Under the pieces are notes generated by a model. It saw nothing but the letters and a program-made list of their open reading frames with translations, was not told the origin of the DNA and ran no database searches. Below, piece after piece: positions 60,876 to 61,182 of a stretch of 64,000 nt of DNA. Every line of letters begins with the position of its first letter. Within the stretch, counting starts at the first letter, position 1. The DNA comes from Lachnospiraceae bacterium. Lineage in GTDB: Bacteria > Bacillota > Clostridia > Lachnospirales > Lachnospiraceae. The DNA is taken from NCBI GenBank assembly GCA_015056945.1, contig SVFH01000003.1, positions 1 through 64,000 on the forward strand, in the 5' to 3' direction. The position numbers and the translations under genes were made by a program.

Positions 60876-60904
60876 TTGACAAATAATATATCATAATTTA
60901 GAAT
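60876..60904 (+). promoter_or_regulatory. Strong sigma-A-like promoter of a noncoding transcript
   Basis: TTGACA - 17 bp - TAGAAT. Confidence 0.75.
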
Positions 60905-60910
60905 ACATAT

Positions 60911-61182
60911 CAGATTGAAAAAGAATTCATTCTATAGGACCACTCTTTTATGGAGTTGAGGCCATACGGACAGCCGGGTCCACTGCCGATTGGCGAAATT
61001 CGCCTTATTGATTGAGTTAGAAGCTCAAATTTTATAAGTTGGTTACTTTATAACCTAAAATGCGTAGTTACGCATACTTGTGAAACGGTCAATAATAGCA
61101 GTGGAAAGTGTTGTTGCAGAATGATACTTTTGTGCGATAATGTACGACTTTAAGCAAGTTGCGTATGCAACTTGCTTTTTTT
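60911..61182 (+). ncRNA. Candidate structured noncoding RNA (class unassigned)
   Basis: No ORF; own promoter; closing stem TCATTCT/AGAATGA (60927-60933 / 61118-61124); GGACC/GGTCC, ACTC/GAGT, GGCGAA/TTCGCC, GGTTA/TAACC, ATGCGTA/TACGCAT helices; ends at a terminator. Confidence 0.6.
61152..61182 (+). terminator. Rho-independent terminator of the ncRNA
   Basis: AAGCAAGTTGC-GTAT-GCAACTTGCTTTTTTT. Confidence 0.85.

Follow-up and report, generated by a model that had tools for sequence, protein, structure and literature searches.

A riboswitch-like leader RNA with a terminator and a putative antiterminator upstream of polyamine genes in Lachnospiraceae and other Firmicutes

Introduction

Convincing polyamine riboswitches were missing until 2023, when spermidine riboswitches were described as variants of SAM-I, with 13 known examples (Salvail et al., 2023, PMC10853860). 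These RNAs are located upstream of ldcC, speE and speB, have an intrinsic terminator and are OFF switches for polyamine genes. The odc1 motif is another structured leader in front of a polyamine decarboxylase gene; found in Alphaproteobacteria, it comprises a hairpin/pseudoknot and a uORF and acts on translation (Brewer et al., 2021, PMC8632094). In Streptococcus pneumoniae, the 82-nt small transcript F59 (SN20, srn235) sits between SP0915 and SP0916, directly upstream of SP0916 and on its strand (PMC3395615). The title of a reference listed in PMC10543277 describes SP0916 as an arginine decarboxylase, and a lung phenotype for F59 was tabulated in a review (PMC4387999). F59 corresponds to the Rfam family RF02440 (SpF59_sRNA, "ldcC RNA"), and the latter label suggests that others have noticed the link to a polyamine gene.

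In this work, we analyzed a 64,000-nt stretch of a Lachnospiraceae contig (SVFH01000003.1), referred to as the window, which carries a structured RNA between feoB and a speA-speE-speB operon. Like the SAM-I-variant spermidine riboswitches, this RNA precedes polyamine genes, has an intrinsic terminator and is probably an OFF switch. However, it has other helices and another core, and searches of 60860-61330 (to E = 5) and of 18 homologous loci (to E = 1) matched no SAM-family aptamer. It is not a member of that class. It shares with the odc1 motif the position before a decarboxylase gene but has no such uORF. The raiA RNA is a Firmicute RNA of similar size, and a preliminary description of the locus had named it as a candidate; this was not borne out, since no Rfam raiA match was obtained up to E = 5, and the genes around the window RNA are polyamine genes. 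We propose, with a probability of about 0.7, that the RNA attenuates transcription of the polyamine operon in cis, in the manner of a riboswitch, and that it belongs to a large class of modular RNAs across Firmicutes. Computational support comes from the conserved structure, the cis position, the terminator and the covarying antiterminator. Among the options of the preliminary description, it is the terminating leader or riboswitch for the downstream polyamine genes that the evidence supports.

Materials and methods

Homologues were gathered with RF02440 from 99, 299 and 399 genomes, and further ones by a DNA pattern search of named genomes. A 46-pair structure model was drawn from an alignment of 69 diverse sequences. 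Model R2 describes domain B alone. We clustered the proteins encoded near the loci and used blastx, with self-hits excluded, to identify the gene that comes first at each non-identical locus. The loci in the context count were found by RNA similarity alone, and 195 of them had enough sequence.

Results and discussion

Locus organization and Rfam identity

The features of the locus, all on the forward strand, are listed below with their evidence in brackets.

60876-60904, forward: sigma-70-type promoter TTGACA-17-TAGAAT (11/12 consensus matches)
60927-60933, forward: P1 closing helix, 5' strand TCATTCT, pairs with 61118-61124 (own-versus-permuted pairing, 137 homologues)
60937-60989, forward: domain A, accessory, the RF02440 match (cmscan and alignment), with the conserved ATACGGACA loop and TGCCGA (homologue alignment)
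60937-60941 and 60977-60981, forward: P2 of domain A, GGACC/GGTCC (covariation model)
60942-60945 and 60953-60956, forward: P3 of domain A (covariation model)
60960-60962 and 60973-60975, forward: P4 of domain A, GGC/GCC (covariation model)
60992-61004, forward: P5 hairpin GGCGA..TCGCC (covariation model and R1 match)
61005-61095, forward: domain B, core, absent from Rfam (model R1, 170.1 bits, E = 5e-44, with the window among its building sequences; R2, 102.4 bits; pair counts), with the conserved block CTTGTGAAACGGTCAATAA (homologue alignment)
61005-61011 and 61089-61095, forward: P6 of domain B (alignment model)
61012-61016 and 61024-61028, forward: P7 of domain B (alignment model)
61036-61039 and 61076-61079, forward: P8 of domain B, AAGT/ACTT (alignment model)
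61041-61045 and 61051-61055, forward: P9 of domain B (alignment model)
61060-61065 and 61070-61075, forward: P10 hairpin of domain B (alignment model)
61072-61080, forward: putative antiterminator 5' strand, 3' side of P10/P8, GCATACTTG, can pair with 61155-61168 (covarying complementarity)
61118-61124, forward: P1 closing helix, 3' strand AGAATGA, pairs with 60927-60933
61152-61182, forward: intrinsic terminator AAGCAAGTTGC-GTAT-GCAACTTGCTT (stem 61152-61162/61167-61177, 11 pairs), then U-tract 61178-61182
61347-62828, forward: first downstream gene, Orn/Lys/Arg decarboxylase (speA/ldcC-like), ATG at 61347 (orthologous family PF01276)
62812-63690, forward: speE, spermidine synthase (polyamine aminopropyltransferase) (TIGR00417/NF002010 above cut-off)
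63684-63998, forward: speB, agmatinase, cut by the window end (TIGR01230 over residues 11-103)

The near-consensus promoter and the intrinsic terminator noted in the preliminary description were both recovered, and the 7-bp closing pair, which spans 198 nt, is the P1 helix of the whole family. Upstream of the promoter, feoB (58433-60811) encodes a 792-aa protein in which an N-terminal FeoA-like stretch is fused to FeoB. Between the terminator and speA there is a copy (61183-61258) of a dispersed palindromic repeat of about 76 bp, which occurs at about 43 places in the same genome with 84-100% identity; two further copies in the window are at 46545-46621 and 46672-46748.

The MFE of 60926-61124 (199 nt) was -61.2 kcal/mol (z = -3.4), a value equalled by 1 of 200 shuffles. 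Because the structure is also kept in homologues, it goes far beyond chance, and the impression of a highly structured RNA holds, with covarying helices among the relatives. No convincing ORF was found, as described before: the sole plus-strand frame of at least 20 aa inside the fold has 21 aa. Coding is unlikely because the conserved 3' part of the homologues contains 1-2 nt indels and TTGTGA to TTGTAA changes. A leader peptide was rejected, as no frame is conserved among the homologues and the ATG is absent or the frame broken. A 5' hairpin (P0) upstream of P1 was likewise rejected, its own-versus-permuted pairing being not significant (z = -1.6).

RF02440 matches 60937-60989 at 67.5 bits, against a gathering score of 37.2, over model positions 1-54 of 54. 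This match had been missed by eye, and it covers domain A only. In the whole window, gathering scores were reached only by RF02440 and two tRNAs, and in 60860-61330 no other family came near its gathering score in a permissive search to E = 5. Consistent with the earlier inspection, the Rfam models of tmRNA, SRP RNA and RNase P RNA gave no match at gathering score in the window, nor did T-box or 6S. The window RNA is a member of RF02440 by covariance-model score, and it shares with that family the full model match and a gene neighborhood like that of pneumococcal F59. However, the RF02440 model consists of domain A alone, without domain B, P1 or the expression platform, and its type, an sRNA gene, does not fit the cis linkage and the terminator/antiterminator platform described below. 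The suggestion of a new class was right in part: RF02440 already covers 54 nt, whereas the remainder lies outside Rfam.

Conservation and covariation

Homologues from many Firmicutes families can be aligned over about 200 nt. Named carriers belong to Lachnospiraceae, Oscillospiraceae, Faecalibacterium, Blautia, Roseburia, Paenibacillus, Bacillus, Neobacillus, Streptococcus, Lactococcus, Acidaminococcus and Phascolarctobacterium. Outside the Rfam model, the strongly conserved blocks are TTATTGATTGAG, CTCAAATTTTATAAGTTGGTTAC and CTTGTGAAACGGTCAATAA, and in most relatives also GAGTAGTAAAAG..TTTGCTATATAGACTCT; the window RNA has all of them except the last, which is diverged here.

The covariation analysis that had been proposed for the homologues supports the structure. 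Under the 46-pair model, 89.0% of cells in the 69 sequences pair, versus 81.5% in shuffled and 30-45% in slid controls, and both partners vary in 27 of the 46 pairs. With a score of 0.206 (0.094 shuffled), covariation exceeds that of every one of the 500 shuffles and of every slid control. Compensatory change was seen in P2, P3, P5, P7, P9 and P10. P6 is nearly invariant, and it is retained despite insertions of 50-150 nt inside it (e.g., L126, L134, L153). For P1, an alignment-free comparison in 137 homologues gave -13.4 kcal/mol for own strands versus -10.1 kcal/mol for permuted ones (z = -15, a value inflated by sequence relatedness, as is that of the antiterminator test below). A covarying, aptamer-like structure is thus present in the 5' leader.

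Gene context

At 194 of the 195 loci, the gene that directly follows the RNA is a polyamine gene on the same strand: an Orn/Lys/Arg decarboxylase in 89, SpeD in 52, PotA in 32, carboxynorspermidine synthase in 20 and NspC in one. Family searches confirmed the identity of representative first genes. At the lone exception (L024), the frame encodes an M28-family peptidase-like protein. Among the 31 genomes of the genus, the RNA and the decarboxylase orthologue are both present in two (100% and 68% identity of the orthologues) and both lacking in 29. Neither the gene order nor this co-occurrence agrees with the "independent" RNA of the preliminary description, and a cis role as the 5' leader of the speA-speE-speB polyamine operon is strongly supported. 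A phage or mobile origin was rejected, as viral contigs and phage records gave no match; the RNA has a single match on a Paenibacillus megaplasmid.

Terminator and proposed switching

An intrinsic terminator lies between the RNA and the gene in 72 of 116 loci, compared to 8 expected by chance. In the other 44, a simple scan detected none, and some of these may use another platform. The 15 nt ending in CTTGTG, i.e., the 3' strand of P10/P8, pair with the terminator 5' arm at -12.1 kcal/mol in own combinations versus -9.3 kcal/mol in permuted ones. In 89 homologues, the z-score of the P8 3' strand with this arm was -11.6 (inflated by relatedness), and 0 of 5000 permutations were as good, versus z = -1.2 to -2.6 for three control arm combinations. 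The terminator 3' arm with the P8 5' strand, considered as an alternative antiterminator, was not significant. The computation therefore points to a platform that couples an aptamer strand to the terminator.

In the window, the antiterminator duplex (61072-61080 with 61155-61168) has a predicted energy of -15.0 kcal/mol. Equilibrium folding gave -85.1 kcal/mol for the terminated and -63.5 kcal/mol for the forced antiterminated state, and the prediction for domain B is that it forms even with no ligand present. Since equilibrium favors termination, either the switch must work kinetically or tertiary contacts are missing from the energy model. With domain B also predicted to fold on its own, the antiterminator would need to be a co-transcriptional state, and this is the weakest step of the proposal.

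We hypothesize that the nascent leader would fold into a P1-closed RNA with the accessory domain A (P2-P4) and the core domain B (P6-P10), and that the 3' strand of domain B (P8/P10) could pair instead with the terminator 5' arm to form the antiterminator. When domain B is stabilized, this strand would be locked away, the terminator would form and the operon would be OFF. When it is not stabilized, the antiterminator would let RNA polymerase read into speA-speE-speB. The stabilizing signal would be an abundant polyamine, probably spermidine, which would lower polyamine synthesis and uptake. The SpeD/SpeE route, the carboxyspermidine route and uptake by PotABCD all converge on spermidine. We infer direct polyamine binding, most likely of spermidine, and the OFF direction, because all regulated routes share this end product and product repression suits the platform.

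It is also conceivable, although unlikely, that the leader is a riboswitch for a precursor or neighboring metabolite (putrescine, agmatine, arginine, lysine or decarboxylated AdoMet) and not for spermidine. A decarboxylase or SpeD does come first in most loci, but those beginning with PotA or with carboxynorspermidine synthase/NspC share neither an amino-acid precursor nor SpeD, and the common product accounts for all contexts more simply. We give still less credit to an attenuator with the same leader and terminator that relies for sensing on an RNA-binding regulator (like PyrR) or on a translating ribosome. The terminator/antiterminator logic is silent on what stabilizes domain B, and a protein could bind at the conserved single-stranded blocks. 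On the other hand, the indels, the broken frames and the TTGTGA to TTGTAA changes leave no conserved leader ORF, no shared regulator gene stood out beside the RNA among the clustered neighbor proteins, and a conserved multi-helix architecture of about 200 nt is more typical of aptamers. A trans-acting sRNA, as in the Rfam label (SpF59, Gene; sRNA), would be a terminated transcript of about 270 nt pairing with distant mRNAs, and although the RNA has its own promoter and terminator and F59 is recorded as a small transcript (PMC3395615) with a lung phenotype (PMC4387999), this is very improbable, and an independent or trans-acting ncRNA was rejected as the main reading, given the 194/195 cis linkage, the covariation of the terminator arm with an aptamer strand and the position of F59 before SP0916 (PMC3395615), an arginine decarboxylase according to the title seen in PMC10543277.

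Novelty and modular organization

Returning to the main proposal, we consider it somewhat better than an even bet that these RNAs form a new, widespread, modular polyamine riboswitch class of about 200 nt. Its core domain B, P1 and platform, with an exchangeable domain A inserted, would control every route to the spermidine pool (amino-acid decarboxylation, SpeD/SpeE, carboxyspermidine and PotABCD uptake) in Firmicutes, with gut commensals and lactococci among them. Of this family only the 54-nt RF02440 part was catalogued, and the present analysis describes its core, its extent, its linkage to polyamine genes and its proposed switching logic; no description of the full RNA or its polyamine regulon was found in openly licensed PMC papers. 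Between roughly a sixth and a quarter of the sampled genomes of the window's family carry the RNA (50/299 matched by RF02440 versus 68/299 by R2), as against the 13 examples of the SAM-I variants (PMC10853860). If the class senses a polyamine, it would be a far more common polyamine riboswitch than these variants. It would then account for the way in which Firmicutes of gut and soil keep spermidine from different routes in balance, and a 54-nt "sRNA" entry would become a regulatory family with a clear ligand hypothesis.

Several of the additional R2 matches have neither domain A nor an Rfam match, and polyamine genes still lie downstream; this group includes the sole other genome of the genus with the RNA (G017, L188). 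The conserved core is therefore the part left out by Rfam. Conversely, domain A and P6 are present in two Lactococcus loci (L141, L149) and in one from a Bacillota MAG (L130), where different inner helices with CCCAAGAAA..CACGCTT stand in for those of domain B, possibly a second, swapped-in sensor. The Lactococcus copies precede potABCD. Since domain A can be absent before polyamine genes, and Lactococcus shows the converse, RF02440 models an accessory module. The loss of domain A and of the inner domain B helices in some relatives would be unusual in one aptamer, which is a point against the proposal. The evolution of large riboswitches could be studied well in a family with such swappable domains. 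In two loci (L066, L167), domain B is minimal: P6 and CTTGTGAA are kept and P7, P9 and P10 are lost, and this remnant may mark the indispensable core. Moreover, one locus (L277, genome G263) has two identical domain-B leaders 390 nt apart, around positions 2066 and 2456, which stem either from a recent duplication in tandem or from an error in the assembly.
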